A stretch of DNA of 64,000 nucleotides. It comes from Corynebacterium sphenisci DSM 44792 (GTDB lineage Bacteria > Actinomycetota > Actinomycetes > Mycobacteriales > Mycobacteriaceae). Below, piece by piece: positions 6,556-20,786 of the stretch (position 1 is its first letter; every line of letters begins with the position of its first letter). The stretch lies in assembly GCF_001941505.1 (NCBI RefSeq), contig NZ_CP009248.1, positions 2,356,001 through 2,420,000 of the forward strand, given 5' to 3'. Made by a program: the position numbers and the translations under genes. The notes below the pieces were generated by a model. It did no database searches. It had not been told where the DNA came from and was given only the letters and a program-made list of their open reading frames with translations.

Positions 6556-6568
6556 GCGGGCGGGCCGG

Positions 6569-7591
6569 CTACTCCCCGACCACCCGGGTCAGCTGCTCCT
6601 CCAGGGCGTCCAGCAGGTAGGGGATGCCGAGCACCGTCTGCCAGGCCAGCGCCTCCTGCTGATCCTCCGCGAGCACCTCGCCAATACAGAAGGCATGACC
6701 CCCGGTGATCGCCGGCAGTTGGCCCAATGCCGGGTCGGCCTTCAAATCGTCCATCACACATTCCTCGCCCGGGGCGTCCAGGATGAGCACATCGAGGTCG
6801 AGCAGGTCGGCCCGTTCCCGAGAGAACGTCACGTAGTAGCCGTCCTCATCGAATTCGTCGAAGGACTCCGGGATGGTGAAGCCAATCGAGGCAAGCAGCC
6901 GGGAGCGCGGATCCTTGCTGGTGTTGACGCCGAGTTCGCCCTCCTCCACGAAGACCATCGCCGCGGTTTTGCCCTCCCATTCGGGATGGGCCTCGCGCAG
7001 CGCCGCGATCCGCTCGTGGACGTCGGCGATGAGCTCCTCGCCCTTCTCCGGCCGGCCCACCGCGGCGGCGGCGTCGCGGGTGGAGTCCTCCCAGCCCTGC
7101 CGCCAGTTCCCGTTGCCGGTCCGGTAGGTCACCGTCGGGGCGATCCGGGAGGGCTTGTCGTAGGTCTCCTGGTCGCCCCCCGAGTACAGGGCGAGGATGA
7201 GATCCGGTTCCGCCGCGGCGATCTCCTCGGCGTCGACCTCCTTCATGTCCACCCACTCCGGGGCGGGGCCCTCGATGAGCGGCTCCTGCCAGGGCAGCGG
7301 TCCCTCGCTGGTCCAGGCGCGCACCCACACCGGGGTGACGCCGAGGGCCAGCAGCGGATCGACGTCGCTGTGGCCCAGGGCCACCACCCGGGCCGGCGCC
7401 TGCTCGATGGTGGTCTCGCCGAAGGCGTGCTCGATGGTGACCGGGAAGGCCCCCTCCTCCACCTCCGCGGTGCTCTGCGCACCGGTCTCGGCCGCGGTGT
7501 CCCCCTCCTCCGAGGAACAGCCCGAAAGCCCCAGCCCACAGGCCAGGGCGATCGCCGCACCCGCAGCGGTGATGCGTCGTCCGATTCTCAT
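6569..7591 (-). CDS. Siderophore-binding lipoprotein 1 of the tandem array
   Basis: Substrate-binding protein of the FecB/Peripla_BP_2 family, 340 residues, secreted and lipid-anchored. The signal peptide has MRIGRR, a hydrophobic core and lipobox LSGC with the lipid-modified C25. The constant block FPVTIEHAFGETTIE at 49-63 is shared by nearly all nine paralogs; the middle is divergent. C278 and C302 are extra cysteines, present at matching places in proteins 3, 4 and 9, and may form a disulfide. It is the last gene of the array, convergent with fpr2 (13 bases apart). Its own promoter has an interrupted G run (18-bp spacer). The ligand cannot be named; a ferric chelate is inferred from family and neighbouring FecCDE genes. 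Confidence 0.88.
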   Translation of the reverse strand: MRIGRRITAAGAAIALACGLGLSGCSSEEGDTAAETGAQSTAEVEEGAFPVTIEHAFGETTIEQAPARVVALGHSDVDPLLALGVTPVWVRAWTSEGPLPWQEPLIEGPAPEWVDMKEVDAEEIAAAEPDLILALYSGGDQETYDKPSRIAPTVTYRTGNGNWRQGWEDSTRDAAAAVGRPEKGEELIADVHERIAALREAHPEWEGKTAAMVFVEEGELGVNTSKDPRSRLLASIGFTIPESFDEFDEDGYYVTFSRERADLLDLDVLILDAPGEECVMDDLKADPALGQLPAITGGHAFCIGEVLAEDQQEALAWQTVLGIPYLLDALEEQLTRVVGE

Positions 7592-7702
7592 CTCTCGTCC
7601 ATCCGATCCGTAGTGGTTGGCGTACGTGGATCGGGCGAGGCCGCATCCGGACCCGGGGACGGTCGCATGACCTGGGCTGGCCGCGGGCGGAAGACGGCGG
7701 AA

Positions 7703-7732
7703 AACGTACCCCCCTCCGCGACGGATCGTCAA
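7703..7732 (-). promoter_or_regulatory. Promoter of lipoprotein 1, interrupted G tract, 18-bp spacer
   Basis: Minus strand TTGACG (7732-7727), spacer ending GGAGGGGGG, TACGTT (7708-7703). The longest G run is six, so slippage should be rare; the promoter is probably fixed in an active spacing. Dyad GGTCGCATGACC at 7661-7672 follows 30 bases after the -10. Confidence 0.75.
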
Positions 7733-7800
7733 GGACCGATCGCGGGAGAGGGGTGGCGGCACCCTTGGTGCGGGATGCCGAGCGTGGCCGGTGGGGACGG

Positions 7801-8814
7801 CTATTCGCCGATGGTGTCAACGATCGCCTGCTCCAGTTCATCGAGGACGTAGAGCTGGGACAGCACCGTGGACCAGTTGATGGCGTTGGCTTCGGCTTCG
7901 TCCAATTTCTCCCCGATGGCGAATGAGCGATTGTCCTGCAGCACCTGGAGGTTGCCGAGCACCGGCTCGGCCGCAATTTCCGCTACGGGGGTGTCACCGG
8001 CGATCCACACGACAAAATCTAAATCAAGGAGATCTGCCTGTTCCGTAGACAAGTCCACGAAGGTGCTGCCGTCCGATGCTTCGGCGATCTGCTCGGGATA
8101 TGCGAAGCCCATGCGGGCGAGCATCCGGTTGAAGGGATAATCGGGGGCGAAGGCACCGAAATGTTCCATCTCGGGTGCCGCGAGCACCGCGGTCTTGCCC
8201 TGCCAATTCGGATGCCGCTCCCGAATCCCGGCGTACTTGACATCGAGTTCATCGATGAGCTGCTGCGCCGCCTTCGGCCGGCCCACCGCCTCCCCCACCA
8301 TCAGCAGGGTGTCTGCCGTGTCCTGCTGGTAATCGGCCTGCCCCTCCGCGTACGTCACCGTCGGGGCGATCTCCGACATCCGGTCGTAGTCGTCCTGCTC
8401 AAGACTGGTGAACATCGCGATGATGAGATCCGGCTTGGCCGCCGCGATATCCTCCATGTCCACGTCCCCCATGAACCACACCGGCTCCTCGCCCTGGATA
8501 TGGGGTTTCTGCCACTCCTCGGGACCATCGCTGGTCCACCCGGTCACCCACACCGGGGTCACCCCGAGAGCGAAGAGGGCGTCCGCATCGGTCTGCCCGT
8601 AGGCGACGACCCGCTTTGGAGCCTTCTCGATGGTGGTCTCGCCGAAGGCGTGCTCGATGGTGACCGGGAAGGCCCCCTCCTCCGCCTCCACGGTGCTGTC
8701 CGCACCGGTCGCGTCCGCGGTGTCCCCTTCCTCCGCGGAACAACCCGAAAGCCCCAGCCCGCAGGCCATGACGATCGCCGCACCCGCGGCGGCGATGCGC
8801 TTGCCGATTCTCAT
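7801..8814 (-). CDS. Siderophore-binding lipoprotein 2 of the tandem array
   Basis: FecB-family substrate-binding lipoprotein, 337 residues. Lipobox LSGC with C25; constant block EEGAFPVTIEHAFGETTIE precedes the variable cleft. No cysteine pair is seen in the C-terminal lobe, unlike proteins 1, 3, 4 and 9. The cleft region (TGWTSDGPEEWQKPH, AMFTSLEQDDYDRMSE) differs from all other members, so a different ligand is expected. The coding sequence is visibly richer in A/T around 8000-8160 than the rest of the window, consistent with separate ancestry of the body. Start ATG follows GGACGAGAG, the leader type shared with genes 1 and 3. Confidence 0.88.
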   Translation of the reverse strand: MRIGKRIAAAGAAIVMACGLGLSGCSAEEGDTADATGADSTVEAEEGAFPVTIEHAFGETTIEKAPKRVVAYGQTDADALFALGVTPVWVTGWTSDGPEEWQKPHIQGEEPVWFMGDVDMEDIAAAKPDLIIAMFTSLEQDDYDRMSEIAPTVTYAEGQADYQQDTADTLLMVGEAVGRPKAAQQLIDELDVKYAGIRERHPNWQGKTAVLAAPEMEHFGAFAPDYPFNRMLARMGFAYPEQIAEASDGSTFVDLSTEQADLLDLDFVVWIAGDTPVAEIAAEPVLGNLQVLQDNRSFAIGEKLDEAEANAINWSTVLSQLYVLDELEQAIVDTIGE

Positions 8815-8927
8815 CTCTCGTCCATCCGATCCGTAGTGGTTTGTGCTGCATGGATCGGGCGAGGCCGCCTCCGGGTCCCGAAACGGTCGATCGACCGCCT
8901 GGCTGGACGGGGCCGAAGACGGCTGAA

Positions 8928-8959
8928 AACGTACCCCCCCCCCCGCGACGGATCGTCAA
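8928..8959 (-). promoter_or_regulatory. Promoter of lipoprotein 2, G11 tract, 20-bp spacer
   Basis: Minus strand TTGACG (8959-8954), 20-bp spacer ending in eleven G, TACGTT (8933-8928). At 20 bp the promoter should be nearly off; loss of two or three G would restore 18 or 17 bp. Perfect dyad GGTCGATCGACC at 8885-8896. Confidence 0.8.
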
Positions 8960-8991
8960 GACCCGCTCGCGGGAGAGGGGGTGGCGGAAGC

Positions 8992-10002
8992 TCAGTCGAG
9001 CAGGCGCTCCAACAGTTCCTCAACATCGTCGAGAATGTACGACCAGCTCAGAGTGGTGGAGTACTGCCAGGCGGTCAGCTCCTCCTCCCCGAGATCCTCA
9101 AAAATGCAGGCGGCCCGCCCCTCGGCGATGGCGGGTACTCCGCGCATGACGGGATCCGCACGCAACTTGTCCATGGAGCACTCGTAGTCGATGAACAGCA
9201 GCGCATCGGCCTCGAAAAGATCGGTTCGCTCATCGGAGACCTCCACCCCGCCATCATCGGAGGCTTCGTCCACCGCGCTCGGCACAACCAGGCCAAAAGC
9301 CTGGGGTAGCTGAGTCCGATCGGCAGTGGAATCATACAACCAGGACAACGCCGGATTCCGGTCACCGACGTTGACGGTCTTCCCCGCCCAGTCCGGGTGC
9401 CGGTCGGCGATGGCCTTCATCCGATCCTCAAGCTCCGAGACGGCGTCAGCCGCCGCCTGCGGCCGGCCCACCGCCTTACCGACATCCTCCATGACCAGCT
9501 CGATGGGTTGGCCCATTTCGGCGTAGCCCTCCCGATGGGTCACGGTCGGCGCAATCTGGGAAAGCCGGTCGTAGACATCACTGTCCTCCACCCGGGTCAT
9601 CGCGATGATGAGATCCGGTTCCGTTGCGGCGATCTGCTCGTAGTCCACTTCTCTGTCCGTGGACGCCTGCGGCAGTTCACCCTCGATGACCTCGCTTTGC
9701 CACGATGTCGGGAAACTTTCGTGGTAGTCATAGGTCCATACCGGGGTCACCCCCACCGCAAGGAGGTAATCCACATCGACCCAGCCAAGAGCCACCACCC
9801 GCGTCGGCGCCTCTTCGATGGTGGTCTCGCCGAATGCGTGCTCGATGGTGACCGGTAAGGCCCCCTCCTCCACCTCCGCGGTGCTCTGCGCACCGGTCGC
9901 GGCTGCGGTGTCGCCCTCCTCCGCGGAACAGCCCGTGAGCCCCAGCCCGCAGACCAGGGCGATCGCCGCACCGACGGCGGTGATGCGTCGTCCGATTCTC
10001 AT
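8992..10002 (-). CDS. Siderophore-binding lipoprotein 3 of the tandem array
   Basis: FecB-family lipoprotein, 336 residues, lipobox LTGC with C25. The constant N-terminal block reads EEGALPVTIEHAFGETTIE (one Phe to Leu change). C275 and C299 correspond to the cysteine pair of proteins 1, 4 and 9. The C-terminal lobe has the acidic motif FIDYECSMDKLRADP. A longer in-frame reading begins at the -35 TTG of its promoter but has no ribosome site and would bury the signal peptide, so MRIGRR is the start. Body sequence is only distantly similar to its neighbours. Confidence 0.88.
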   Translation of the reverse strand: MRIGRRITAVGAAIALVCGLGLTGCSAEEGDTAAATGAQSTAEVEEGALPVTIEHAFGETTIEEAPTRVVALGWVDVDYLLAVGVTPVWTYDYHESFPTSWQSEVIEGELPQASTDREVDYEQIAATEPDLIIAMTRVEDSDVYDRLSQIAPTVTHREGYAEMGQPIELVMEDVGKAVGRPQAAADAVSELEDRMKAIADRHPDWAGKTVNVGDRNPALSWLYDSTADRTQLPQAFGLVVPSAVDEASDDGGVEVSDERTDLFEADALLFIDYECSMDKLRADPVMRGVPAIAEGRAACIFEDLGEEELTAWQYSTTLSWSYILDDVEELLERLLD

Positions 10003-10115
10003 TCTCTCGTCCATCCGATCCGTAGTGGTTTGTGGTGCATGGATCGGGCGAGGCCGCATCCGGCCCCGGGGACGGTCGCATGACCTGGGCTGGCCCCGGG
10101 CCGAAGACGGCTGAA

Positions 10116-10146
10116 AACGTACCCCCCCCCCGCGACGGACCGTCAA
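10116..10146 (-). promoter_or_regulatory. Promoter of lipoprotein 3, G10 tract, 19-bp spacer
   Basis: Minus strand TTGACG (10146-10141), 19-bp spacer ending in ten G, TACGTT (10121-10116). One G fewer gives 18 bp, one more gives 20 bp. Dyad GGTCGCATGACC at 10074-10085. Confidence 0.8.
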
Positions 10147-10191
10147 GACCCGGTGGGCGGAAGGGGGTGGGGCGGACGCCGGCGGGCCGGC

Positions 10192-11220
10192 TCAGTCGCC
10201 GAGCTCCTCGACGAGCATCGGCTCGATCTCGTCGAGCACGTGATCCAGGCTCAGCACGGTCTGCCACTGGAAGGCCATGCCGAGCTCGGGGTCATCGAAG
10301 AACTCGTCCACGCACACCGAGCGGCCCTCCTTGACCACGTCCAGCCGGCCGAGGATCGGGTCGGTGGCCAGGCTGCCGCCGGGCCCGGTGGTGCACCCCT
10401 CCTGACCCCAGAACACGACGTCCAGCTCCAGCACATTGGCCTGCTCCAGGGAGAACGCGGAGACGTGGCCGCCCTCGGCAAGCTCGGCGATCTTCTCCGG
10501 CACCACCATGCCCAGCTTGGCGAAGAACCGGGATCGCGGGTCATCCGGGGAATAGGCGTTGATGAGGTCCTCGCGGGCGATCGCCAGGGCGGTGGTCTTG
10601 CCCTCCCAGTTCGGGTGCCGCCCCCGGATGGCGGTGAAGCGGCCCTCGATGTCGTCGATGAGGTCCCGCGCCGCCTGCGGCCGGCCGATGGCCTCGCCGA
10701 TCATCTCCGCGGTGATGTCCCACGGCTGCTGCCAGTCGGCGTATCCCTCCCGGAACGGCACCACGGGGGCGATCTCGGAGAGCTGCTCGTACTGCTCCCG
10801 GGTCATCCCGGAGTACATCGCCACGATGAGATCCGGGTCCACGGCGGCGACGTCCTCCGGGTCGATCTCCTCGCCGTCGTAGAACTCGGGCAGCTCGCCC
10901 CGGGCGGCCTCGAGTTGCCAGCCGGTGGGCTCCGGGGTGTTCCACTCCTTGACGAACACCGGGGTCACCCCGAGGGCGAGCAGCGGATCGATGTCGTTCT
11001 CCCCGTAGGCCACGACCCGCTGCGGGGCCTCCTCGATGGTGGTCTCCCCGTAGGCGTGCTCGATGGTGACCGGGAAGGCCCCCTCCTCCACTTCGACGGT
11101 GCTCTCCACTCCGGTCGCGGCCGCGGTGTCGCCCTCCTCCGAGGAGCAGCCCGCAAGGCCCAGCCCGCAAGCCAGGGCGATGGCCGCTCCGGCGGCGGTG
11201 ATGCGTCGTCCGATTCTCAT
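10192..11220 (-). CDS. Siderophore-binding lipoprotein 4 of the tandem array
   Basis: FecB-family lipoprotein, 342 residues. Lipobox LAGC with C25, constant block EEGAFPVTIEHAYGETTIE. Cysteines C276 and C303 match the pair of proteins 1, 3 and 9. The N-terminal signal and block are almost the same as in protein 1, whereas the cleft segments (KEWNTPEPTGWQLE, FREGYADWQQPWDI) are its own. From this gene on to gene 9 the leader before the ATG changes to GGACGGACACGAC (gene 6 carries a shortened version), which marks two sub-blocks of the array. Ligand unknown. Confidence 0.88.
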   Translation of the reverse strand: MRIGRRITAAGAAIALACGLGLAGCSSEEGDTAAATGVESTVEVEEGAFPVTIEHAYGETTIEEAPQRVVAYGENDIDPLLALGVTPVFVKEWNTPEPTGWQLEAARGELPEFYDGEEIDPEDVAAVDPDLIVAMYSGMTREQYEQLSEIAPVVPFREGYADWQQPWDITAEMIGEAIGRPQAARDLIDDIEGRFTAIRGRHPNWEGKTTALAIAREDLINAYSPDDPRSRFFAKLGMVVPEKIAELAEGGHVSAFSLEQANVLELDVVFWGQEGCTTGPGGSLATDPILGRLDVVKEGRSVCVDEFFDDPELGMAFQWQTVLSLDHVLDEIEPMLVEELGD

Positions 11221-11332
11221 GTCGTGTCCGTCCGATCCGTTCTGGTTGGGGATGCATGGATCGGGCGAGGCCGCATCCGGACCCGGGGACGGTCGCATGA
11301 CCTGGGCTGGCCCCGGGCCGAAGACGGCTGAA

Positions 11333-11363
11333 AACGTACCCCCCCCCCGCGACGGACCGTCAA
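11333..11363 (-). promoter_or_regulatory. Promoter of lipoprotein 4, G10 tract, 19-bp spacer
   Basis: Minus strand TTGACG (11363-11358), 19-bp spacer ending in ten G, TACGTT (11338-11333). Dyad GGTCGCATGACC at 11291-11302. Confidence 0.8.
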
Positions 11364-11429
11364 GACCCGGTTGCGCGGAGGGGGAGGCGGCAGGGGCACG
11401 GGGTCCGCCTCGTGCCGGCGGCGCGGGGG

Positions 11430-12449
11430 CTACTCCGCCAGCGCCTCGGCGAGCGGCTCCTCGATGCCGTCGAGGAGGTAGTTCAGGCTGAGCACCGACT
11501 GCCATTCGAAGGCCTCGGCCAGCATCGGATCATCGGCGGCGAGCAACCCAAGAGGGATGACGTGGCCCTTCTTCGCCACATCCAGGCCGGCGAGCACCGG
11601 CTGCGCCATGAAGGACTCATCGCTGTCGCTGTAGAGGAAGAACACATCCTCGTCGACCACGCTGGCCTGTTCCAGGGAGATGTCGGCCCACACGTTGTCG
11701 CCGACCATCGCGTCAACCTCCGGGGACATCCGGAAGCCGAGTTTGCCGAAGAAGGCGCCGCGCGGGTCCAGCGTGGTCAGCATGGACAGCTGGCCGTTCT
11801 CCTCCTCGTACAGGCCGGCGACCGCGCTCATCTCCTGCCATTCGGGGTGCCGTTCCCGGATGCCCTCGAACTTGCCCTTGACCTCCTCGACGAGCTCCTT
11901 CGCGGCCTTCGGCCGGCCCACGGCACGGCCGATCCGCTCGGTGGTGACGTCCCAGGGCTGCGACCAGTCCGGGTACTCCTCGGCGTAGGGCACCACGGGC
12001 GCGATCTGGGAGAGCTTGTCGTAATCCGCCTGCTCCAGACCGGCCCACTGGGCGACGATGAGATCCGGCTCCAGTGCGGCGATCTTCTCGTCCGCGTTCT
12101 CGCCGGACGGGATGTTGAAGGCCGGCTGCTCGCCGGTGTCCGCGTTCTTCTGCCAGGCCAGCGGTTCATCGCTGTGCCACTCCGCCACGCCGACCGGGGT
12201 GACGCCCAGCGCCAGGAGCGGGTCCACGTCCGTCGCGCCGAGGGCGACGACCCGGGTGGGCGCCTGCTCGAGGGTGGTCTCGCCGAAGGCGTGCTCGATA
12301 GTGACCGGGAAGGCCCCGTCCTCCACGCCCGCGGCCGCCGAGGTTTCCTGTGCCTTACCCGTCTCATCCGGGGAGCAGCCCGCAAGGCCGGGCCCGCAGG
12401 CCAGCATCAGTGCCGCACCCGCGGCGGCGATGCGCGTGCCGATTCTCAT
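11430..12449 (-). CDS. Siderophore-binding lipoprotein 5 of the tandem array
   Basis: FecB-family lipoprotein, 339 residues, lipobox LAGC with C25. It forms a close subgroup with proteins 6 and 8: long stretches such as EEYPDWSQPWDVTTERIGR and LGFRMSPEVDAMVG are shared, and no C-terminal cysteine pair is present. The relation to protein 6 extends over most of the coding sequence and into the 3' flank, so the two look like a recent tandem duplication. It is the only member with a promoter at the ideal 17-bp spacing, and its G run is broken, so it is the best candidate for a constantly expressed receptor. Confidence 0.88.
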   Translation of the reverse strand: MRIGTRIAAAGAALMLACGPGLAGCSPDETGKAQETSAAAGVEDGAFPVTIEHAFGETTLEQAPTRVVALGATDVDPLLALGVTPVGVAEWHSDEPLAWQKNADTGEQPAFNIPSGENADEKIAALEPDLIVAQWAGLEQADYDKLSQIAPVVPYAEEYPDWSQPWDVTTERIGRAVGRPKAAKELVEEVKGKFEGIRERHPEWQEMSAVAGLYEEENGQLSMLTTLDPRGAFFGKLGFRMSPEVDAMVGDNVWADISLEQASVVDEDVFFLYSDSDESFMAQPVLAGLDVAKKGHVIPLGLLAADDPMLAEAFEWQSVLSLNYLLDGIEEPLAEALAE

Positions 12450-12560
12450 GTCGTGTCCGTCCGATCCGTTCTGGTTGGCGTACGTGGATCGGGCGAGGCC
12501 GCATCGGATCCCGGAATGATCGCATGACCTGGGCTGGTCCCGGGTCCGAAGACGGCTGAA

Positions 12561-12589
12561 AACGTATCCTCCCCGCGACGGACCGTCAA
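12561..12589 (-). promoter_or_regulatory. Promoter of lipoprotein 5, broken G tract, 17-bp spacer
   Basis: Minus strand TTGACG (12589-12584), 17-bp spacer ending GGGGAGGA, TACGTT (12566-12561). Optimal spacing, no run above four G. The dyad is degraded on one arm (GATCGCATGACC, 12518-12529). Confidence 0.78.
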
Positions 12590-12656
12590 GACCCGGTCGT
12601 GCGGAGGGGGGAGGCGGCAGGGGCGCGGGTTCCACCTCGTGCCGGCGTCGCGGGGG

Positions 12657-13682
12657 CTACTCCGCCAGCGCCTCGGCGAGCGGTTCCTCGATGCCGTCGA
12701 GGAAGTAGCTCAGGCTGAGCACCGACTGCCAGTCGAAAGCGTCGCTCAGCGTGTCATCCCCGGCGGCGAGCAGCCCCAGCGGGATGACGTGACCCTTCTT
12801 CGCCACGTCCAGGCCGGCGAGCACCGGCTGCGCCATGAACCCCTCGTCGCTGTCGCCGTAGAGGAAGAACACGTCCTCGTCGACCACGCTGGCCTGCTCC
12901 AGGGAGATTTCGGCCCACACGTCCTCGCCGACCATCGCATCGACCTCCGGGGACATCCGGAAACCCAGATTGCCGAAGAAGGCGCCGCGCGGGTCCAGCG
13001 TGGTGAGCATGGACAGTTGACCGTCATCCTCCGAGTACAGGCCGGCGACCGCGCTCATCTCCTGCCATTCGGGATGCCGCTCCCGGATCCCGTCGAATTT
13101 GGCCTGCACGTCATCGATGAGCGCCTTTGCGGCCTTCGGCCGGCCCACGGCACGGCCGATCCGCTCGGTGGTGACGTCCCAGGGCTGCGACCAGTCAGGG
13201 TACTCCTCGGCATAGGCCACCACCGGCGCGATCTGGGAGAGCCGGTCATACTCCTCCTGCTCCAGGCCGATCCACTGGGCGATGATGAGATCCGGCTCAA
13301 AGGCGGCGATCTCCTCCGGATCCACCTCACCGACCGGGATGTCGAAGGTCGGCTCCTCACCGGTCTCCGCGTTCTTCTGCCAGGCCATCGGCTTATCGGT
13401 GTGCCATTCCACGCCACCAACCGGGGTCACGCCCAGCGCCAGCAGCGTGTCCACGTCGCTCCACCCGAGCGAGAAGACCCGCTCCGGGGCCTTCTCGATG
13501 GTGGTCTCGCCGAAGGCGTGCTCGATGGTGACCGGGAAGGCCCCCTCCTCGACGCTCGCCGCCGAGGCCGCCGAGGTTTCCTGGGCCTCCCCCGCCTCAT
13601 CCGAGGAGCAGGCCGTCAGTCCCAGCCCGCAGGTCAGGGCGATTGCGGCGCCAGCGGCGGCGATCCTTGTGCTGATTCTCAT
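12657..13682 (-). CDS. Siderophore-binding lipoprotein 6 of the tandem array
   Basis: FecB-family lipoprotein, 341 residues. The signal peptide ends in an LTAC lipobox (C25), the only one of the nine with Ala before the cysteine. Body is nearly that of protein 5 in the C-terminal lobe (VAKKGHVIPLGLLAA, DGIEEPLAEALAE) but differs in the first cleft segment (GGVEWHTDKPMAWQKNAET against AEWHSDEPLAWQKNADT in protein 5). Substitutions between the two therefore concentrate where ligand contact is expected. The leader before ATG is shortened (GATCGGACGGACAC). Confidence 0.88.
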   Translation of the reverse strand: MRISTRIAAAGAAIALTCGLGLTACSSDEAGEAQETSAASAASVEEGAFPVTIEHAFGETTIEKAPERVFSLGWSDVDTLLALGVTPVGGVEWHTDKPMAWQKNAETGEEPTFDIPVGEVDPEEIAAFEPDLIIAQWIGLEQEEYDRLSQIAPVVAYAEEYPDWSQPWDVTTERIGRAVGRPKAAKALIDDVQAKFDGIRERHPEWQEMSAVAGLYSEDDGQLSMLTTLDPRGAFFGNLGFRMSPEVDAMVGEDVWAEISLEQASVVDEDVFFLYGDSDEGFMAQPVLAGLDVAKKGHVIPLGLLAAGDDTLSDAFDWQSVLSLSYFLDGIEEPLAEALAE

Positions 13683-13792
13683 GTGTCCGTCCGATCCTGG
13701 TGGTTGGTGATGCAGGGATCGGGCGAGGCCGCCTCCGCGCCCCGGGATGGGTCGGTCGACCGGCTGGCTGGGCGGGGCCGAAGACGGCTGAA

Positions 13793-13823
13793 AACGTACC
13801 CCCCCCCCGCGACGGATCGTCAA
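13793..13823 (-). promoter_or_regulatory. Promoter of lipoprotein 6, G10 tract, 19-bp spacer
   Basis: Minus strand TTGACG (13823-13818), 19-bp spacer ending in ten G, TACGTT (13798-13793). Dyad GGTCGGTCGACC at 13750-13761. Confidence 0.8.
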
Positions 13824-13902
13824 GATCCGGACTCGCGAGGGGGTGGGCGGGGACGGTCACCGCCGGCTGCGAAGCCACGGCCGGGTTGCGCGGATGCCCC
13901 GA

Positions 13903-14940
13903 CTACGTGCCGATGGTCTCCTCGATGACGGCGACGTAGGTGTCGAGGAAGTGGTCAATGGACAGCACGGTGTTCCACATGAGCGCATAGTGCATCCCAT
14001 CATCGATGTGGTCACCGGTGACGAAGCTGCGACCACCGGTGACCACCTCCAGATTCCCCAGAATCGGATGCTCGGAGATCACCAGGGCACCCGCTTCGCG
14101 CCCCTCACCCTCGAGCGTGCAGTTTTCCCAGCACTCCCACACCACCATGTCGTGATCGACGAGACCCGCCTGCTCCATGGAAATAAAGACATTTGTCGTA
14201 CCGTCACCAAGGGCGGCGACCTCATCCGGGTAGACGAACCCGAAGTCGTGAAGCATCCGGTTGCTCACGTCACCCTCGGGATAGGCGATCAGCTCCTCCT
14301 GGTCGGGGACGATGACGACGGCCTCTTTACCGGCCCAGTTCGGATGATCCTCAGCGACCTTCGCAATCCGATCCTCCAGGTCGGTCACCAGCTTCTCGGC
14401 GGCGGCCGGCTTGCCCACCGCCTTGCCGATGATCCGGGTGGTCTCCTGCCAGGACTGCTGGTAGCCACCGGTTTCCTCCGCGTAAGCGACCACCGGGGCG
14501 ATGTCCGAGAGCTTCTCGTACTGGTCCGGTTCGAGATCCGCGTACTGGGCGATGATCAGATCCGGGTTCTGCGCGGCGATGCTCTCGAAATCCATCTCCT
14601 CCTCATGGTTGAACCAGAGCGGATCCCCGTCCACCAGAGGCTGCTGCCATTCATTGGGCCCCTCATCGGTCCAGCCACGAACCCACACCGGGGTGATGCC
14701 CAGGGCGAGCAGCGGATCGACATCGCTTTCCCCGATCGCCGCGATCCTGGTGGGGGCCTCCTCGATGGTGGTCTCCCCGAAGACGTGCTCGATGGTGACC
14801 GGGAAGGCGCCCTCCTCGGCCTCGACCGCAGCGGTCGCGTCCGCGGCGTCCCCGCCATCCCCCGAGCAGCCGGCGAGGCCGAGGCCGCAGGCCATGATGA
14901 CCGCCGCTCCGGCGGCGGCAAATCGCTGTCCGATTCTCAT
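13903..14940 (-). CDS. Siderophore-binding lipoprotein 7 of the tandem array
   Basis: FecB-family lipoprotein, 345 residues, lipobox LAGC with C25. The constant block reads EEGAFPVTIEHVFGETTIE. It carries a distinct cysteine pair C270-x3-C274 (VWECWENC), not the spacing seen in proteins 1, 3, 4 and 9, and a longer C-terminal lobe ending DTYVAVIEETIGT. The cleft segment RGWTDEGPNEWQQPLV is reminiscent of proteins 1 and 2. Sequence outside the constant block is the least like the 5/6/8 subgroup. Its promoter has the shortest uninterrupted run (nine G). Confidence 0.88.
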   Translation of the reverse strand: MRIGQRFAAAGAAVIMACGLGLAGCSGDGGDAADATAAVEAEEGAFPVTIEHVFGETTIEEAPTRIAAIGESDVDPLLALGITPVWVRGWTDEGPNEWQQPLVDGDPLWFNHEEEMDFESIAAQNPDLIIAQYADLEPDQYEKLSDIAPVVAYAEETGGYQQSWQETTRIIGKAVGKPAAAEKLVTDLEDRIAKVAEDHPNWAGKEAVVIVPDQEELIAYPEGDVSNRMLHDFGFVYPDEVAALGDGTTNVFISMEQAGLVDHDMVVWECWENCTLEGEGREAGALVISEHPILGNLEVVTGGRSFVTGDHIDDGMHYALMWNTVLSIDHFLDTYVAVIEETIGT

Positions 14941-15053
14941 GTCGTGTCCGTCCGATCCGTTCTGGTTCGCGTTCTTGGATCGGGCGAGGCCGTCTCGGCG
15001 CTTCGGAAACGGTCGGGTGACCTGGGCTGGACGGAGAGCCGAAGATGGCTGAA

Positions 15054-15083
15054 AACGTACCCCCCCCCGCGACGAAAAGTCAA
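15054..15083 (-). promoter_or_regulatory. Promoter of lipoprotein 7, G9 tract, 18-bp spacer
   Basis: Minus strand TTGACT (15083-15078), 18-bp spacer ending in nine G, TACGTT (15059-15054). Active spacing expected, but still long enough to slip. Dyad GGTCGGGTGACC at 15011-15022. Confidence 0.8.
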
Positions 15084-15147
15084 GGGCGGTTTGCGCGGGA
15101 GGGGAAGGGCTGCAACCGAGGCAGGGTGGCCCCGCCGCCGTTGGGCG

Positions 15148-16173
15148 CTACGTCGCGAGCGCCTCGGCGATCGGTTCCTCGACACGGTCGAGGAGGTAGT
15201 CGAGGCTGAGCACCGTCTGCCAGGGGAAGGCCAGGGGCAGATCCGGATCGGTCTCGGCCCATGCGGAAACCGGGAGCACCCGGTTGTTCCGCACCACGTC
15301 AAGCTTCTCGATCACCGGTTCCGCGGTGAACTCATCGAGATCCTGCGCGATGAGGAAGAACACGTCCTCGTCGACGAGGTTCGCCTGTTCCAGGGATATC
15401 TGGGCCCATACGGTGTCACCGACCGCGGCATCGACCTCCGGGGACATCCGGAAACCGAGCTTGCCGAAGAAGTCGCCGCGCGGGTCCTTGGTGGTCACCA
15501 TCGCGAAACTCCCATCCTCCTGCGAGTACAGGCCCGTGACGGCGGTCATCTCCTGCCATTCGGGGTGCCGTTCCCGGATCGCCGCGAACTTCCCCTCGAC
15601 CTCCTCCACGAGTTCCTTCGCCGCCTTCGGCCGACCCACCGCCCGCCCGATCCGCTCGGTGGTGATATCCCAGGGTTGCGACCAGTCCGGGTACTCCTCG
15701 GCGTAGGCCACCACCGGGGCAACCTGGGAAAGCTTGTCGTACAGCTCCTGATCCAACCCGATCCACTGGGCGATGATGAGATCCGGTTTGAAACTGGCGA
15801 CCTTCTCCGGATCGGGCTTCTCCGCGGGCAGATTGAACACCGGCTCCTCCCCGGTGACCGCATTGCGCTGCCAGGCACCGGGCTCGGTGCCCTCCCACGC
15901 CGGGGCACTGACCGGGGTCACGCCCAGGGCCAGGAGCGCATCGACGTCTGTCCAGCCCAGGGCGAAGACCCGCTCCGGCGCCTCCTCGATGGTGGTCTCG
16001 CCGAAGGCGTGCTCGATGGTGACCGGGAAGGCGCCCTCCTCGGCCTCCACCGCGGGCGCCGCCGAACTGGTCTGGGCACCGTCGCCCTCGTCGCCCGAGC
16101 ATCCCGCAAGGCCGAGCCCGCAGGCCATGACGATCGCCGCTCCGGCGGCGGCGAGCCGCTGTCCGATTCTCAT
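15148..16173 (-). CDS. Siderophore-binding lipoprotein 8 of the tandem array
   Basis: FecB-family lipoprotein, 341 residues, lipobox LAGC with C25. Third member of the 5/6/8 subgroup: shares EEYPDWSQPWDITTERIGR and LGFRMSPEVDA, but has a distinct N-terminal cleft (APAWEGTEPGAWQRNAVTG) and a changed C-terminal lobe (RNNRVLPVSAWAETDPDLP). Its signal peptide and the spacer after the lipid cysteine (SGDEGDGAQTSSAAPAVE) match protein 9 rather than 5 or 6, so the 5' part and the body have different nearest relatives. That is a mosaic pattern. Confidence 0.88.
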   Translation of the reverse strand: MRIGQRLAAAGAAIVMACGLGLAGCSGDEGDGAQTSSAAPAVEAEEGAFPVTIEHAFGETTIEEAPERVFALGWTDVDALLALGVTPVSAPAWEGTEPGAWQRNAVTGEEPVFNLPAEKPDPEKVASFKPDLIIAQWIGLDQELYDKLSQVAPVVAYAEEYPDWSQPWDITTERIGRAVGRPKAAKELVEEVEGKFAAIRERHPEWQEMTAVTGLYSQEDGSFAMVTTKDPRGDFFGKLGFRMSPEVDAAVGDTVWAQISLEQANLVDEDVFFLIAQDLDEFTAEPVIEKLDVVRNNRVLPVSAWAETDPDLPLAFPWQTVLSLDYLLDRVEEPIAEALAT

Positions 16174-16285
16174 ATCGTGTCCGTCCGATCCGTTCTGGTT
16201 CGCGTACGTGGATCGGGCGAGGCCGCCTCCGGGCCCCGAACCGGTCGGTCGACCGGCTGGCTGGGCGGGGCCGAAGACGGCTGAA

Positions 16286-16317
16286 AACGTACCCCCCCCC
16301 CCGCGACGGAAAGTCAA
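16286..16317 (-). promoter_or_regulatory. Promoter of lipoprotein 8, G11 tract, 20-bp spacer
   Basis: Minus strand TTGACT (16317-16312), 20-bp spacer ending in eleven G, TACGTT (16291-16286). Predicted off in this sequence. Dyad GGTCGGTCGACC at 16243-16254. Confidence 0.8.
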
Positions 16318-16371
16318 GATCCGTTTGCGCGGGAAGGGAGTGGGTACCCGGAAACCGGGTGCCGGCGGGGG

Positions 16372-17406
16372 TCAGTCACCCAGGATTTCCGCGAGGGGCT
16401 CCTCGATGTGATCCAGCAGATACGGCAGGCTCAGCACGGTCTGCGAGTTGAAGGCCATCGTCGCGGCATGATCGGGATCACCGCCGAAGACGTCCTGCAC
16501 GCACAGGGCGCGACCCTGCCTGGCAACCTCCAGCGCCTTCACGGTGGGCAGGTCGTAGTCATCGGGGTTGCATTCGTCGATGCCGCCCCGCCACACCAGG
16601 AGATCCACGTCCAGGATATGGGCGTTCTCCTGCGAGATCTCGGTGTCCGGGTTACCGTCGGCGAGCTCGTCGATCTCCGCGGGAACCACGAGGCCCAGGC
16701 GAGTGAAGAAGTCACTGCGCCGATCGACGGAGGAGTAGGCGTAGATGTTCCCGCCCTCCTCAAGCGGGGCGACGACGACGGTCTTGCCCTCCCATTCCGG
16801 ATGGCGTCCCCGGATTTCCGCGAATCGGTCCGAGATACCGTCGACGAGCTCCTGCGCCTTAGCCGGCCGGCCCAGCGCCTTGCCGATCACGAGCGTGGAG
16901 TCCTCCCAGCCCTGACCCCAGTCGTCCTCACTCTCCTGGTGGGCGACGGTCGGGGCAATCTGCGAGAGCTTGTCGTACTGCTCCTGGGTGATCTCCGACC
17001 ACACCGCGAGGATCAGATCCGGCTCAGCGCCCGCGATCTTCTCGATGTCGAGTTCCTTATCGTCGAGCCACACCGGCTCCGTGTCCCCGGCGTGCGGCTT
17101 CTGCCACGCCACGAACTCGGAGTCGAAGCGCGGCCGGATCGCCACCGGGGTGACGCCGAGCGCGAGCACCGCGTCCTCGTCGGTTATGCCGACGGTCGCC
17201 ACGCGCGTGGGTGCCTCCTCGATGGTGGTCTCGCCGAAGGCGTGCTCGATGGTGACCGGGAAGGCCCCCTCCTCGACCTCCACCGCGGGCGCCGCCGAAC
17301 TGGTCTGGGCACCGCCGCCCTCGTCCCCCGAGCATCCCGCAAGGCCGAGGCCGCAGGCCATGACGATCGCCGCTCCGGCGGCGGCAAATCGCTGTCCGAT
17401 TCTCAT
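16372..17406 (-). CDS. Siderophore-binding lipoprotein 9 of the tandem array
   Basis: FecB-family lipoprotein, 344 residues, lipobox LAGC with C25, constant block EEGAFPVTIEHAFGETTIE. C279 and C302 match the pair of proteins 1, 3 and 4. The central helix GQGWEDSTLVIGKALGR resembles protein 1 (RQGWEDSTRD). It is the member nearest the transporter genes: the ATPase gene ends 187 bases upstream, so transcript from the permease operon could also read into it. Its own promoter has eleven G. Confidence 0.88.
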   Translation of the reverse strand: MRIGQRFAAAGAAIVMACGLGLAGCSGDEGGGAQTSSAAPAVEVEEGAFPVTIEHAFGETTIEEAPTRVATVGITDEDAVLALGVTPVAIRPRFDSEFVAWQKPHAGDTEPVWLDDKELDIEKIAGAEPDLILAVWSEITQEQYDKLSQIAPTVAHQESEDDWGQGWEDSTLVIGKALGRPAKAQELVDGISDRFAEIRGRHPEWEGKTVVVAPLEEGGNIYAYSSVDRRSDFFTRLGLVVPAEIDELADGNPDTEISQENAHILDVDLLVWRGGIDECNPDDYDLPTVKALEVARQGRALCVQDVFGGDPDHAATMAFNSQTVLSLPYLLDHIEEPLAEILGD

Positions 17407-17518
17407 GTCGTGTCCGTCCGATCCGTTCTGGTTCGCGTTCGTGGATCGGGCGAGGCCGCCTCCGGGCCCCGAGCCGGTTGATCGACCGGCTGGCTGGGCG
17501 GGGCCGAAGACGGCTGAA

Positions 17519-17550
17519 AACGTACCCCCCCCCCCGCGACGAAAAGTCAA
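17519..17550 (-). promoter_or_regulatory. Promoter of lipoprotein 9, G11 tract, 20-bp spacer
   Basis: Minus strand TTGACT (17550-17545), 20-bp spacer ending in eleven G, TACGTT (17524-17519). Predicted off in this sequence. Dyad GGTTGATCGACC (one arm altered) at 17476-17487. It lies 42 bases after the ATPase stop. Confidence 0.8.
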
Positions 17551-17592
17551 GATCCGTTTGCGTGGGAGGGGGACGCGGGGGCGCCGGGCGGG

Positions 17593-18420
17593 TTATTCGG
17601 GGACGATATGCGGGCCGCCGACCGCCGGGTCGTCGACCACCAGCGCCTCGAAGCCGAAGACCTCGTGCAGCAGCTCCCGGGTGATCACCTCCCCCGGCTC
17701 GCCCTGGGTGATGAGGGAGCCGTCCTTGATCACCACCAGGTGATCGGAGAACCGGGCGGCGAGGTTGAGATCGTGCAGCACCATCACTACGGTGCGCTCC
17801 GGGGTGAGCCGGCGCACCCGGCGCAGGATCTCCAGGCTGTTCGCCAGGTCCAGGTAGGTGGTCGGCTCGTCCAGGAGCATGGTGGGGGTCTCCTGGGCCA
17901 GGGCCATGGCCAGCCACACGTGCTGGCGCTGCCCGCCGGAGAGCGAGGACAGCGGCCGGGCCCGCAGATGGGTCATCCCGGTGAGCTCCAGGGCCTCGGC
18001 GACCTTGGCGGCGTCCTCGGCGGACCAGCGGGACAGCCAGGACTGGTGCGGGTGCCGGCCCCGGGAGACTAGCTGGGCGACGCTGATCCCCTCCGGGGCG
18101 ATCGGCTGCTGCGGCAGCAGGGACAGCCGGGTGGCCCGGGCCTTGCGGGGGATCCGCTCGATGTCCTCGCCGTCGAGCTCGATGACGCCCTCGTGGTCGA
18201 GGACGGTGGCGATGGAGTTGAGCAGGGTGGATTTGCCGCAGCCGTTGGGGCCGATGAGCGTGGTCACGCAGTCGGCGGGCAGCTCCAGGTTCATCCCCTC
18301 GATGATGGTGGCCTCCCCGTAGCCCACGGTGAGGTCGCGCACCGCGATCCGGGGGGTGCCGGGCCCGGTGCGGCCGGCGGGCGGGGCCGCCTGCGTCGCG
18401 GGGGCGGATGCGGCGGTCAT
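17593..18420 (-). CDS. Iron-siderophore ABC importer, ATP-binding protein (FecE/FepC type)
   Basis: ATPase of the ferric-siderophore importer, 275 residues. Walker A GPNGCGKST at 57-65, Q-loop LSLLPQQP, signature LSGGQRQHVWLAMALAQ near 155, Walker B MLLDEPTTYLD and the switch histidine in VMVLHDLNLAA are all intact. Start MTAASAP is chosen because its ATG overlaps the permease stop as ATGA. It is the last gene of the three-gene importer unit; the nine lipoproteins follow directly. No second FecCDE set exists in the window, so all nine binding proteins probably share this one. Confidence 0.93.
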   Translation of the reverse strand: MTAASAPATQAAPPAGRTGPGTPRIAVRDLTVGYGEATIIEGMNLELPADCVTTLIGPNGCGKSTLLNSIATVLDHEGVIELDGEDIERIPRKARATRLSLLPQQPIAPEGISVAQLVSRGRHPHQSWLSRWSAEDAAKVAEALELTGMTHLRARPLSSLSGGQRQHVWLAMALAQETPTMLLDEPTTYLDLANSLEILRRVRRLTPERTVVMVLHDLNLAARFSDHLVVIKDGSLITQGEPGEVITRELLHEVFGFEALVVDDPAVGGPHIVPE

Positions 18421-19520
18421 ATGGTGCTCCTCCGGTTCTGTTGGATGACGAGGTACAGCAGCACGGGCGCGCCGAGCAGCGAGGTGACGATGCCCACCGG
18501 CAGCGACCAGGGGATGATCAGCCGGGCGGCGACGTCCGCGGCGGTGACCAGGGCGCCGCCGCAGAGCATGGCGGTGAGGATCGGCGGGGTCGGGGCCTTC
18601 GAGGCCCAGCGCGCGATCTGCGGGGCGACGAAGGCGACGAAACCCACCGGCCCGGCGGCGGAGACCGCGATCGCGGCGAGGACGACGGCCACCGCCAGCT
18701 GCACGATCTGGGCGACCTTGACCCGGATGCCCAGCACATGGGCGACCTGGGGGCCCAGGGCCAGGGCGGAGAGGGCGAAGACCAGCCAGGAGGCGAGCAG
18801 CACCGCCGCCAGCAGGGTGGCCATCGGCGCCCAGGCGTGCTGCCAGCCGCGGTCGTTGACGGAGCCGTTGAGCCACAGGCTGGCCCGGAGCAGCTCCTGC
18901 TCCCCGGCCTTGGCCATCAGCCAGGTGGAGAAGGCGCCGAGGAACATCGACACCGCGATGCCCATGAGCACGATGCGCAGGGTGTCGCCCCAGTTGCGGC
19001 CCACGATGAGCACCACCACCACGGTGGTGGCGGTCGCCCCGATGAGCGCCATGGCGGGCAGGCCCACGGTGTCGCGCAGCATCCGGGCGGTGGCCCCGGT
19101 GTCATTGGCCCGGGCGGAGAGCAGCAGGGTGGCCACCACCGCCAGCGAGGCACCCTGGGTCACCCCCAGCACATCCGGGCTGACCAGGGGGTTGCGGGCC
19201 ACGGTCTGGGTGATCGCGCCGCCGAAGGCGAGGCAGGCGCCGACCAGGAAGGCCACCGTGGCCCGGCCGGCGCGCCATTCGATGACGATCGCCCGGGACA
19301 GGCCCTCGCCCCGCCCGGTGAGGATCCGGAACAGCTCGTCGAGGCCGATGAAGTAGTTGCCGAAGACGATGGAGCTGACATAGGCGACCACCGCGATGGC
19401 CGCCATGACGAGGGCGACCACCAGGGTGCGGGTGGGCACCAGCCCGGTGACCGGGCCCAGCCGCAGCCGGGCGTGCCCGGGCACCAGGTCCTGGCGGGTG
19501 AGCAGCCTCGGCCGGCTCAT
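18417..19520 (-). CDS. Iron-siderophore ABC importer, permease (FecD/FepG type)
   Basis: FecCD-family permease of 367 residues with about ten membrane segments. The family landmarks are present: GGAITQTVARNPLVSPDVLGVTQGASL and, near the C-terminus, AAGPVGFVAFVAPQIARW, followed by the EAA-like coupling region and IIPWSLPVGIVTSLLGAPVLLYL. ATGA overlaps at both ends couple it with the partner permease and the ATPase. It forms a heterodimeric channel with the protein encoded at 19517-20665. Start MSRPRL is preferred over a much longer open frame that runs inside the upstream gene. Confidence 0.93.
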   Translation of the reverse strand: MSRPRLLTRQDLVPGHARLRLGPVTGLVPTRTLVVALVMAAIAVVAYVSSIVFGNYFIGLDELFRILTGRGEGLSRAIVIEWRAGRATVAFLVGACLAFGGAITQTVARNPLVSPDVLGVTQGASLAVVATLLLSARANDTGATARMLRDTVGLPAMALIGATATTVVVVLIVGRNWGDTLRIVLMGIAVSMFLGAFSTWLMAKAGEQELLRASLWLNGSVNDRGWQHAWAPMATLLAAVLLASWLVFALSALALGPQVAHVLGIRVKVAQIVQLAVAVVLAAIAVSAAGPVGFVAFVAPQIARWASKAPTPPILTAMLCGGALVTAADVAARLIIPWSLPVGIVTSLLGAPVLLYLVIQQNRRSTI

Positions 19521-20665
19521 AGCGCGTTCACCCGGCCCCGCTTGATCAGCATGATGAAGAACGGCGCCCCGGCGAGGGCCATCACGATGCCCATCTGCAG
19601 CTCCCCGGGGCGCACCACCACCCGGCCGATCATGTCCGCCCACAGGGCGAGGAAGCCGCCGGTGACCGCGGAGGCGGGCACCACCAGCCGGTAGTCGGGG
19701 CCGGTGAAGCCGCGCACGATATGCGGGGCGGCCAGCCCGATGAAGCCGATCGGGCCGGCGGCGGCGGTGGCCCCGCCGCCGAGCAGGGACACGGTGGCCA
19801 GGCCGAGCACCCGGTGCGCGGTGACGTTGAGGCCGAGCGCGGCGGCGGTGCGCTCGCCGAGGGCGAGCAGGTTCAGCGGCTTGGCCTGCGCCTGGGCGAG
19901 CACCAGGCCGAGCAGCATGAACCCGCCGGTGGCCAGGATCACCTCCACCCCGCGGCCGGCCACGGAGCCGGCGGCCCATTTCGCCAGCTCCCGCATGGCC
20001 TCGCGGTCGGAGAGGGTGAGGATGGTGGTGACGTTGCCGAACAGGGCGGACAGCGCCGCCCCGGCGAGCACCAGGGACAGCGGGCTGGCCACGATCGGCC
20101 CGGTGGAGGACAGCGCGAAGACCAGCACGGTCACCGCGGCGCAGCCGGCCAGGGCGGCCCACACGTAGCCGTAGGGGTCGCGGGTGATGCCGAGGAAGAT
20201 CACCAGCACCACGGCGAAGGCGGCCCCGGAGGTCAGCCCGAACAGGCCCGGGTCGGCCAGGGCGTTGCGGGTGTGGCCCTGCACCACCGCGCCGGCGGCG
20301 CCGAGGGCCAGGCCGACCAGCACCGCGAGGATGCCGCGGGGCAGTCGCAGGGTGGCGATGATGACGGAGAGCTGGTCATCTCCGGTGCCGGGGACCTCCC
20401 CGCGCAGCCCGGCGGGCACCGCCTCCGGCAGCCGGGTCCACACCTCGGCGAAGGTGTTCGGCAGCGCGCCCACGAAGAGGCTGCCCACCAGGGACGCCGC
20501 GAGGATGCCGAGGAGGACCAGCATCAGCAGCGGGAAGGTGCGGGGGATGCCGTCGAGGCGTTCGGCGCGGATCTCCACCTCGTCATGGGCGCGCACCGGG
20601 CGGGCGCCGTCCGGGGGTGCGGCGCCGGCGGATGCGCCGGGCGCGGCGGTGTCGGTCGTCCTCAT
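19517..20665 (-). CDS. Iron-siderophore ABC importer, permease (FecC/FepD type)
   Basis: FecCD-family permease of 382 residues, first gene of the importer operon. Landmarks: GLALGAAGAVVQGHTRNALADPGLFGL in the first half and AAGPIGFIGLAAPHIVRGF in the second. The first ~55 residues are a polar, Ala/Pro-rich cytoplasmic extension. Start MRTTDTA has AGGGTG about 7 bases upstream. A promoter with possible iron-box half-sites lies at 20757-20797. Regulation by DtxR is expected for this function but the site is weak. Confidence 0.92.
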   Translation of the reverse strand: MRTTDTAAPGASAGAAPPDGARPVRAHDEVEIRAERLDGIPRTFPLLMLVLLGILAASLVGSLFVGALPNTFAEVWTRLPEAVPAGLRGEVPGTGDDQLSVIIATLRLPRGILAVLVGLALGAAGAVVQGHTRNALADPGLFGLTSGAAFAVVLVIFLGITRDPYGYVWAALAGCAAVTVLVFALSSTGPIVASPLSLVLAGAALSALFGNVTTILTLSDREAMRELAKWAAGSVAGRGVEVILATGGFMLLGLVLAQAQAKPLNLLALGERTAAALGLNVTAHRVLGLATVSLLGGGATAAAGPIGFIGLAAPHIVRGFTGPDYRLVVPASAVTGGFLALWADMIGRVVVRPGELQMGIVMALAGAPFFIMLIKRGRVNAL

Positions 20666-20756
20666 GGTCACCCTGCGGGGCGCGGGGGCGCGGGCACCCG
20701 GCGGGGCCGCCCCGCCCCACACCGGGGCCCCGGGCCGGCGGCCCGGAATCGTGGGC

Positions 20757-20786
20757 AGGGTAACCCCGGCGCGGAATGCATGTCAA
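20757..20786 (-). promoter_or_regulatory. Proposed promoter of the importer operon
   Basis: Minus strand TTGACA (20786-20781), 18-bp spacer, TACCCT (20762-20757). Just upstream the minus strand reads TTAGGCGAGG, and about 20 bases earlier TTAGGT: two DtxR-like half-sites, but no full 19-bp iron box. Direct DtxR control is therefore only suggested. Confidence 0.5.

Follow-up and report, generated by a model that had tools for sequence, protein, structure and literature searches.

Described systems with tracts in promoters

In Neisseria, a homopolymer lies between the −35 and −10 elements of fetA, which encodes an enterobactin receptor, and of porA. A fetA tract of 6C is not phase-variable, while tracts of 8C or longer are. 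The cited part of PMC10502178 describes the vlp lipoprotein family of Mycoplasma hyorhinis, in which every promoter carries a homopolymer. According to the excerpt of PMC7864442, tp0126 of T. pallidum is transcribed best when its spacer poly-G gives a distance of 17 bp. The poly-G in the tprL promoter of the same organism is described as ranging from 7 to 11 within isolates. In Cutibacterium acnes, the authors assign a C tract of HPT_37 to the stretch between −35 and −10, and two strains with 5 and 7 C show a two-fold difference in expression; in the same cited passages the variable tracts are mostly clade-consistent, which the authors read as slow accumulation (PMC4746626). This case contradicts the earlier note on the present DNA, which knew of no actinobacterial example. 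Tracts are also known in M. tuberculosis and B. breve, but at other positions.

Organization of the binder array

The window (the whole stretch of DNA that was analysed, 64 kb) contains one permease pair and an ATPase gene, followed by nine paralogous lipoprotein genes. The latter are numbered 1 to 9 from low to high coordinate and all lie on the minus strand. The transporter genes were assigned by domain match, and the promoter of their operon is a candidate by pattern only.

20757..20786, minus, TTGACA-N18-TACCCT with no long G tract, candidate operon promoter of the permeases and ATPase
19517..20722, minus, second FecCD-type permease (PF01032)
18417..19550, minus, FecCD-type permease (PF01032)
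17593..18420, minus, ABC transporter ATPase (PF00005)
16372..17406, minus, gene 9, iron-complex-binding lipoprotein (PF01497), 344 aa
15148..16173, minus, gene 8, paralogue, 341 aa
13903..14940, minus, gene 7, paralogue, 345 aa
12657..13682, minus, gene 6, paralogue, 341 aa
11430..12449, minus, gene 5, paralogue, 339 aa
10192..11220, minus, gene 4, paralogue, 342 aa
8992..10002, minus, gene 3, paralogue, 336 aa
7801..8814, minus, gene 2, paralogue, 337 aa
6569..7591, minus, gene 1, paralogue (PF01497), 340 aa

A PF01497 binder, PF01032 permeases and an ABC ATPase make up a complete FecCD-type importer set. PF01497 was precomputed for eight of the nine binders, and a domain search hit genes 1 and 9. 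The lipobox Cys25 is invariant across the nine proteins. A PDB profile search of the binder was led by 7fhm and also reached a vitamin B12 binder. Judging from their sequences, the array genes would encode iron-complex-binding lipoproteins, and the siderophore-receptor array proposed in the earlier note would agree with such proteins standing beside a FecCD importer. Diversifying selection was considered and rejected, as the closest binder pair has a dN of 0.107 and a dS of 0.284, which is purifying.

Promoter-like sites and their G tracts

A script listing TTGAC[G/T]-N9-Gn-TACGTT on the minus strand of the window returned nine sites, exactly reproducing the positions, tracts and spacers given in the earlier note. 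The −35 and −10 elements were assigned by pattern and conservation only.

17519..17550, minus, gene 9 promoter-like site, TTGACT-N9-G11-TACGTT, spacer 20
16286..16317, minus, gene 8 promoter-like site, G11, spacer 20
15054..15083, minus, gene 7 promoter-like site, G9, spacer 18
13793..13823, minus, gene 6 promoter-like site, G10, spacer 19
12561..12589, minus, gene 5 promoter-like site, interrupted tract GGGGAGGA, spacer 17
11333..11363, minus, gene 4 promoter-like site, G10, spacer 19
10116..10146, minus, gene 3 promoter-like site, G10, spacer 19
8928..8959, minus, gene 2 promoter-like site, G11, spacer 20
7703..7732, minus, gene 1 promoter-like site, interrupted tract GGAGGGGGG, spacer 18

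As in a vlp-type family, each of the nine paralogous lipoprotein genes has its own site. Seven tracts are pure and 9–11 long, with spacers of 18–20, and two are interrupted, with spacers of 17 and 18; these lengths were read from one genome's assembly, and assembled homopolymer lengths may be wrong by one. A homopolymer of about 8 or more thus stands between the predicted −35 and −10 in seven of the nine cases. An ATG follows each −10 at 110–113 bp. TACGTT agrees with TATAAT at three of six positions and is a weak −10 by the E. coli standard. When 6500–21200 was scanned with an E. coli-type consensus that admits only spacers of 16–18, no promoter was called.

The G tracts of the array are not due to chance, because G/C runs are depleted elsewhere in the window and 7 of the genome's 20 long runs fall in the array spacers. 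All seven runs of at least 8 in the 64 kb lie inside these spacers. Outside 7600–17560, no run of at least 8 was observed against 28.1 expected from base composition, and one of at least 7 against 74.3. In the 2.59 Mb genome there are 20 distinct runs of at least 9. The 13 remaining ones (12 inspected by eye, all 13 for gene context) were considered as further promoters of this kind and rejected, since none fits the looser pattern used for the genus. The nine array copies have a common descent and are therefore not nine independent inventions.

Leaders, mosaicism and transcription units

The nine leaders are 110–113 bp long, for example:

17407..17518, minus, leader of gene 9

All nine have a CCGATCC/GGATCGG hairpin directly before the start codon, adjoining the likely ribosome-binding site. 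Only 1 of 27 pairs is altered on both sides, and for want of covariation the structure is unproven despite its conservation. GGTC-N4-GACC was seen by eye in the alignment of the leaders in seven of the nine.

Mean identity between paralogues is 0.49 upstream of −35, 0.89 from −35 to −10, 0.79 in the leader and 0.36–0.68 from coding base 271 onward, so similarity falls sharply upstream of −35. The block from promoter through leader to signal peptide is mosaic and is common to copies independently of the gene body. Five database proteins named as C. sphenisci have 58–91% identity to the nearest array member, and one of them is a mosaic. These patterns suggest recombination as a second layer, by which the promoter-to-signal-peptide block may be swapped among copies.

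No convincing terminators were found between the array genes (4 against 3.5 in shuffles). The DNA between the genes shows no excess of folding over its shuffles (z −1.4 to 1.3), and therefore read-through could blur independent switching. A search for a 19-bp DtxR box found none near the array: the best match in the array region was 12/19 and the best in the window 14/19 at 46696, with five shuffles reaching 12–13.

Distribution of the promoter type and of binder relatives

A search for TTGAC, G8 or longer and TANNNT in a sample of the phylum gave 12 sites in 12 of 395 other genomes, while the reversed pattern gave 0 matches. With the −35 permuted there were 0 forward matches in 396 genomes, the reversed control of that run giving 2. 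The same grammar in one family found 9 sites in 8 of 65 genomes (reversed 0), three of which also count among the 12 of the phylum sample. A looser pattern in the genus (G7, wider gap) gave 5 sites in 5 of 241 other genomes against 3 reversed-control sites in 2, and so no excess is seen within the genus.

For the downstream genes, 22 loci were counted: 12 from the phylum sample, 6 from the one-family sample and 4 from the looser genus pattern. L011 was left out because it has no secreted-type gene downstream; L190 duplicates L188, and L198 and L199 stand outside the count. Related copies (L184/L192; L185/L193/L191; L183/L195) reduce the independent loci to about 18 of 22. A hydrophobic N-terminus was found downstream at 19 of the 22 loci against 4 of 25 other ORFs at the same loci (one threshold, 2.0). 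The misses were L181, L008 and L012; the last two are ABC ATPase genes, and for L181 the script chose another frame, a TTG-start ORF at +23 appearing secreted. Elsewhere in the phylum, then, poly-G spacer promoters appear from sequence to stand mostly ahead of secreted or membrane proteins. Spacers at the 22 loci are 14–21 bp, within a search pattern that itself restricts them to roughly 14–24. Related promoters in one genome pair have 8 and 9 G with identical neighbouring bases, and those in a second pair 10 and 9 G with differences just upstream.

The array promoter DNA matched at full length in its own genome only, and as scraps of 28–31 bp in 2 of 241 other genomes, with 3 candidates scored per genome. 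Some binder relative occurs in 234 of 242 genomes (at most 8 candidates scored per genome in most cases). Among the best 80 of 312 confirmed loci of named relatives, 77 have one binder in the stretch examined and 3 have two or three; a G/C run of at least 8 occurs in 3 of the 80, at least 3.5 kb from the binder. Four of eight genus regions have a 42–43% identical binder beside permease/ATPase genes, and in none of them is this binder preceded by a G/C run of at least 7; one of the four has another binder farther away. The remaining regions contain either a lone binder or several.

Proposed mechanism and alternatives

Based on the above results, we suggest that the locus is probably a phase-variable binder array serving one iron-complex importer. 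Replication slippage would add or remove G's in the spacers, and each step would shift the −35/−10 distance by one base, 17 bp being best and 20 bp weak, so that each binder gene would be tuned up or down stochastically. The permeases and ATPase would stay on while the binders vary. The interrupted tracts, with expected strong spacers of 17 and 18 bp, may leave genes 1 and 5 locked on. NucS was found in the genome and MutS was not, in a search whose control worked in 11 of 14 reference genomes. In the cited section of PMC11551767, NucS of M. smegmatis leaves indels of 1–2 bp unrepaired. Small indels in the present array tracts are probably not corrected by NucS-type repair. Tract placement, slippage-prone lengths, spacers of 17–20, the iron-complex lipoproteins, the repair background and the recurrence of this promoter type ahead of secreted or membrane proteins in other genomes of the phylum favour the phase variation claimed in the earlier note. 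As to transcription of one gene at a time, no convincing terminator was found between genes. For the note's suggestion of escape from phage or immunity there is no evidence here.

Tract lengths might instead vary only over long times, giving lineage-fixed, stable promoter strength and a dosage tuning of the nine binders. This is unlikely, although the mostly clade-consistent C. acnes tracts, the HPT_37 spacer tract among them in the cited passages (PMC4746626), would fit it, as would the two interrupted array tracts and the coverage of only 9–11 by the pure ones. It accords poorly with the 7 to 11 described within isolates for tprL, with fetA tracts of 8C or longer being termed phase-variable, with the indels that M. 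smegmatis NucS is reported to leave uncorrected (excerpt of PMC11551767), and with seven of nine tracts remaining pure despite strong depletion elsewhere.

The sharp fall of similarity upstream of −35, and the G tract carried between the same two boxes by unrelated genes across the phylum, make it quite improbable that the tract is passive baggage of a founding gene, spread by duplication and gene conversion, its length without effect and expression coming from read-through or the leader. Such an origin would nevertheless explain a 5′ block common to copies independently of gene body, weak or absent terminators and a conserved hairpin adjoining the likely ribosome-binding site. We give very little credence to the block being a binding site or structural element, such as the operator of an unknown iron regulator, whose likeness to −35/−10 is coincidental: the weak −10 and the GGTC-N4-GACC seen by eye in seven leaders would suit it, but permuting the −35 letters abolished forward matches in 396 genomes, and the 22 other loci keep spacers of 14–21 bp under a pattern limited to roughly 14–24.

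If the phase-variable reading is true, cells could randomly display different iron catchers, one fixed transporter would work with many switchable binders, and importer specificity would be set by chance per cell and selected afterwards. A wider proposal, to which we give somewhat less than even weight, is a two-layer generator. In it, fast and reversible G-slippage would pick among the nine binders, and slower gene reshuffling, with the 5′ block exchanged among copies, would renew that block and the gene bodies between strains; the array would be the most concentrated example of a seemingly undescribed class of promoters with poly-G spacers across Actinomycetota, mostly before secreted or membrane proteins. 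Scanning for the promoter signature is an easy means of compiling candidate phase-variable genes in this phylum, where repair of the NucS type is expected to leave small indels in place.

Comparison with described systems

The best reading of the array is promoter-spacer phase variation like that of fetA and porA, with a vlp-like tract in every promoter. As in fetA/porA, the homopolymer lies between the predicted −35 and −10, and fetA too is a siderophore receptor gene. However, fetA and porA are single genes for Gram-negative outer-membrane proteins, whereas the array comprises nine tandem ABC-importer lipoproteins in an actinobacterium, and its switching is inferred. HPT_37 of C. acnes is likewise an actinobacterial tract between −35 and −10; as presented in the cited passages, it is a single gene (UbiE-like methylase) with a short tract and a two-strain comparison. 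T. pallidum tp0126 and tpr share poly-G in the promoters of several genes, that of tp0126 being between −35 and −10, but in the excerpt these are predicted outer-membrane protein genes of a spirochaete, whereas the array is one tandem cluster. The M. hyorhinis vlp family shares a tract in each promoter. In the cited description, its tract is poly-A and its genes form distinct transcripts, whereas the array has poly-G and no clear terminators between genes, and the array proteins, unlike Vlp, are iron-complex binders beside a transporter.

Organization of the array and its proteins

The array consists of nine tandem lipoprotein genes, numbered by increasing coordinate, and each of them is preceded by a promoter-like site:

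7703-17550, minus strand: nine sites, each composed of TTGAC(G/T), nine bases ending in CGTCGC, a G tract and TACGTT

Re-measurement of all nine sites gave values identical to the tract and spacer lengths reported in the earlier note: from gene 1 to gene 9, the tracts are interrupted, G11, G10, G10, interrupted, G10, G9, G11 and G11, and the spacers are 18, 20, 19, 19, 17, 19, 18, 20 and 20 bp. The ATG lies 110-113 bp downstream of each -10 box. The nine products are 336-345 aa long, genes 2-9 show 45-51% identity to gene 1, and the lipobox cysteine is invariant.

Based on Pfam annotation, genes 1 and 9 belong to PF01497, which was also precomputed for eight of the nine binders, while the three genes upstream of the array belong to PF00005 and PF01032. 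A profile of the nine proteins matched iron-complex-binding proteins among solved structures, with 7fhm ("probable periplasmic iron-transport lipoprotein", E 1.4e-51) as the top match and SirA, YfiY and the ferrienterobactin-binding protein as further ones. Because of these families and matches, the locus is a single FecCD-type importer with nine binders. Family membership leads us to infer that the ligand would be a siderophore.

Promoter and leader

Over the 60 bp preceding -35, mean pairwise identity of the nine units was 0.49, versus 0.89 across -35 to -10, so conservation starts at the TTGAC box. It was 0.79 in the leader, 0.72-0.78 over the first 270 coding bases and 0.36-0.68 beyond. 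An E. coli-type promoter scan called none in the array region, and TACGTT is a weak -10 box by the E. coli rule. In one view, TAnnnT suffices in actinobacterial -10 boxes. For the permease/ATPase operon, pattern matching alone points to a candidate promoter, TTGACA-N18-TACCCT, which lacks a long tract. In addition, a putative CCGATCC...GGATCGG hairpin closes all nine leaders (7592-17518), adjoining the likely ribosome-binding site; translational control by it is possible.

Non-randomness of the G tracts

The window contains seven G/C runs of at least 8, every one inside the array spacers. Outside the array, no such run was observed against 28.1 expected by base composition, and one run of at least 7 against 74.3. 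The array spacers hold 7 of the 20 distinct runs of at least 9 in the whole genome (2,594,799 bp, one contig), and none of the other 13 fits even a looser promoter pattern (G7, wider gap). The nine sites share common descent, and the case therefore rests on pure, unequal tracts being kept where such runs are otherwise removed. The feature is real and strongly non-random.

All 20 runs lie on one strand per chromosome half (5 on the plus strand below 1.27 Mb, 15 on the minus strand above 1.46 Mb). The dnaA gene is at 1.5 kb; if the origin is near it and the terminus near mid-genome, the strand in question would be the leading one. Three runs elsewhere in the genome (L108, G13; L120, G11; L113, G9) lie between predicted ORFs or directly ahead of one, and these could also be variable.

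Proposed switching and recombination

The tracts are of slippage length, unequal between copies and set between two conserved boxes spaced 17-20 bp. A search of the genome found NucS and no MutS domain; the control worked in 11 of 14 reference genomes. According to PMC11551767, NucS of M. smegmatis leaves 1-2 bp indels unrepaired. Transcription of T. pallidum tp0126 is highest with a poly-G giving a spacer of 17 (PMC7864442, citing earlier work), and meningococcal fetA is described as phase-variable at 8C or more, not at 6C (PMC13293289). By the proposed mechanism, each G gained or lost would alter transcription of that single gene. The interrupted tracts give 17 bp in gene 5 and 18 bp in gene 1. 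Strong promoters would be expected at such spacings, and the two may be locked-on forms, but two cases are no more than a hint. The intergenic stretches of the array show no more stable folding than shuffled sequences (z -1.4 to 1.3), and for this reason gene-by-gene independent switching is doubtful. As judged from its sequence, the locus is most likely a phase-variable binder array.

Recombination appears to form a second layer of diversity. Leader and body identities diverge in genes 8/9 (0.96 vs 0.54), 1/3 (0.91 vs 0.53) and 5/6 (0.71 vs 0.87). Over all 36 pairs, a weak correlation links leader similarity to similarity in the first 210 coding bases (r 0.31, p 0.036); none was clear between leader and body (r 0.14, p 0.19) or between the first 210 bases and the body (r 0.19, p 0.18). 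The closest database proteins outside this genome are themselves named Corynebacterium sphenisci, in a database clustered at 90%, which hides additional near-identical array members. Five of them, taken as coming from one contig (58,929 bases), show the following identities to their nearest array members: P0003 gene 2 (91%), P0006 gene 6 (89%), P0011 gene 7 (77%), P0009 gene 9 (72%) and P0002 gene 2 (58%). Along P0006 the nearest array member changes, from gene 8 in the first part (93%) through gene 6 centrally (94-95%) to gene 5 in the last part (95%, against 90% for gene 6).

Similar promoters in other genomes

We searched 396 genomes of the phylum with the strict pattern TTGACN{8,14}G8N{0,3}TANNNT, using its reverse as a control. 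The strict pattern gave 7 sites in C. sphenisci and 12 distinct sites in 12 other genomes (13 rows, one site being listed twice) versus 0 for the control; with -35 permuted to TCAGT, 0 sites were found in this genome set and 2 for its reversed control. A search of 65 genomes from a single family gave 9 sites in 8 genomes (control 0), 3 of the sites being already among the 12. A set of 394 genomes of the class, which overlaps the phylum sample, gave one site in each of two other genomes (control 0). Across these searches, every other genome carried two sites at most. Within the genus (241 other genomes), the looser pattern gave 5 sites versus 3 control sites, which is not above chance.

Downstream genes were scored at 22 loci. 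A hydrophobic N-terminal segment was predicted for 19 of the 22 versus 4 of 25 other ORFs at the same loci. A Pfam scan covered the proteins of 18 of the 22 loci. Six matched families of surface type (choline-binding repeat, BspA-type leucine-rich, Listeria-Bacteroides repeat, two beta-helix and peptidoglycan-binding), two matched DUF6020 and two ABC ATPases; eight had no Pfam match. Within one family, tract length is not constant between related promoters of different genomes. The tract is 8 G in L184 and 9 G in L192, where the adjoining bases are identical, though the L192 genome is 87% complete and an assembly error is therefore possible; it is 10 G in L185 and 9 G in L193, with the bases directly upstream also differing.

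Two other Corynebacterium genomes carry a promoter-like site with a G7/G8 spacer ahead of a secreted-peptide gene (L008 in G018, L010 in G143). We take both genes to be lactococcin-972-like; the L010 protein had no Pfam match. Furthermore, poly-G spacer sites in two genomes of different families (L009 in G108, 9 G; L199 in G914, 11 G) precede proteins that look alike by eye.

Comparison with known systems

Among open-licence papers, we found neither a tract-bearing array of iron-binding proteins nor a survey of poly-G spacer promoters across Actinomycetota. The spacer-tract mechanism as such is already known. It is established for porA and fetA (PMC2791445; PMC5320596); opc is listed with such genes in PMC2791445, but its tract lies over -35 according to PMC7864442. 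The earlier note knew of no actinobacterial example, which is contradicted by the published spacer tract HPT_37 of Cutibacterium acnes (PMC4746626). Other actinobacterial tracts are the intragenic G-tract switch of B. breve pili (PMC9187656) and the regulatory tracts of M. tuberculosis espR and espACD (PMC11898584). The vlp genes of M. hyorhinis encode a family of lipoproteins, and each of their promoters is described as containing a homopolymer (PMC10502178).
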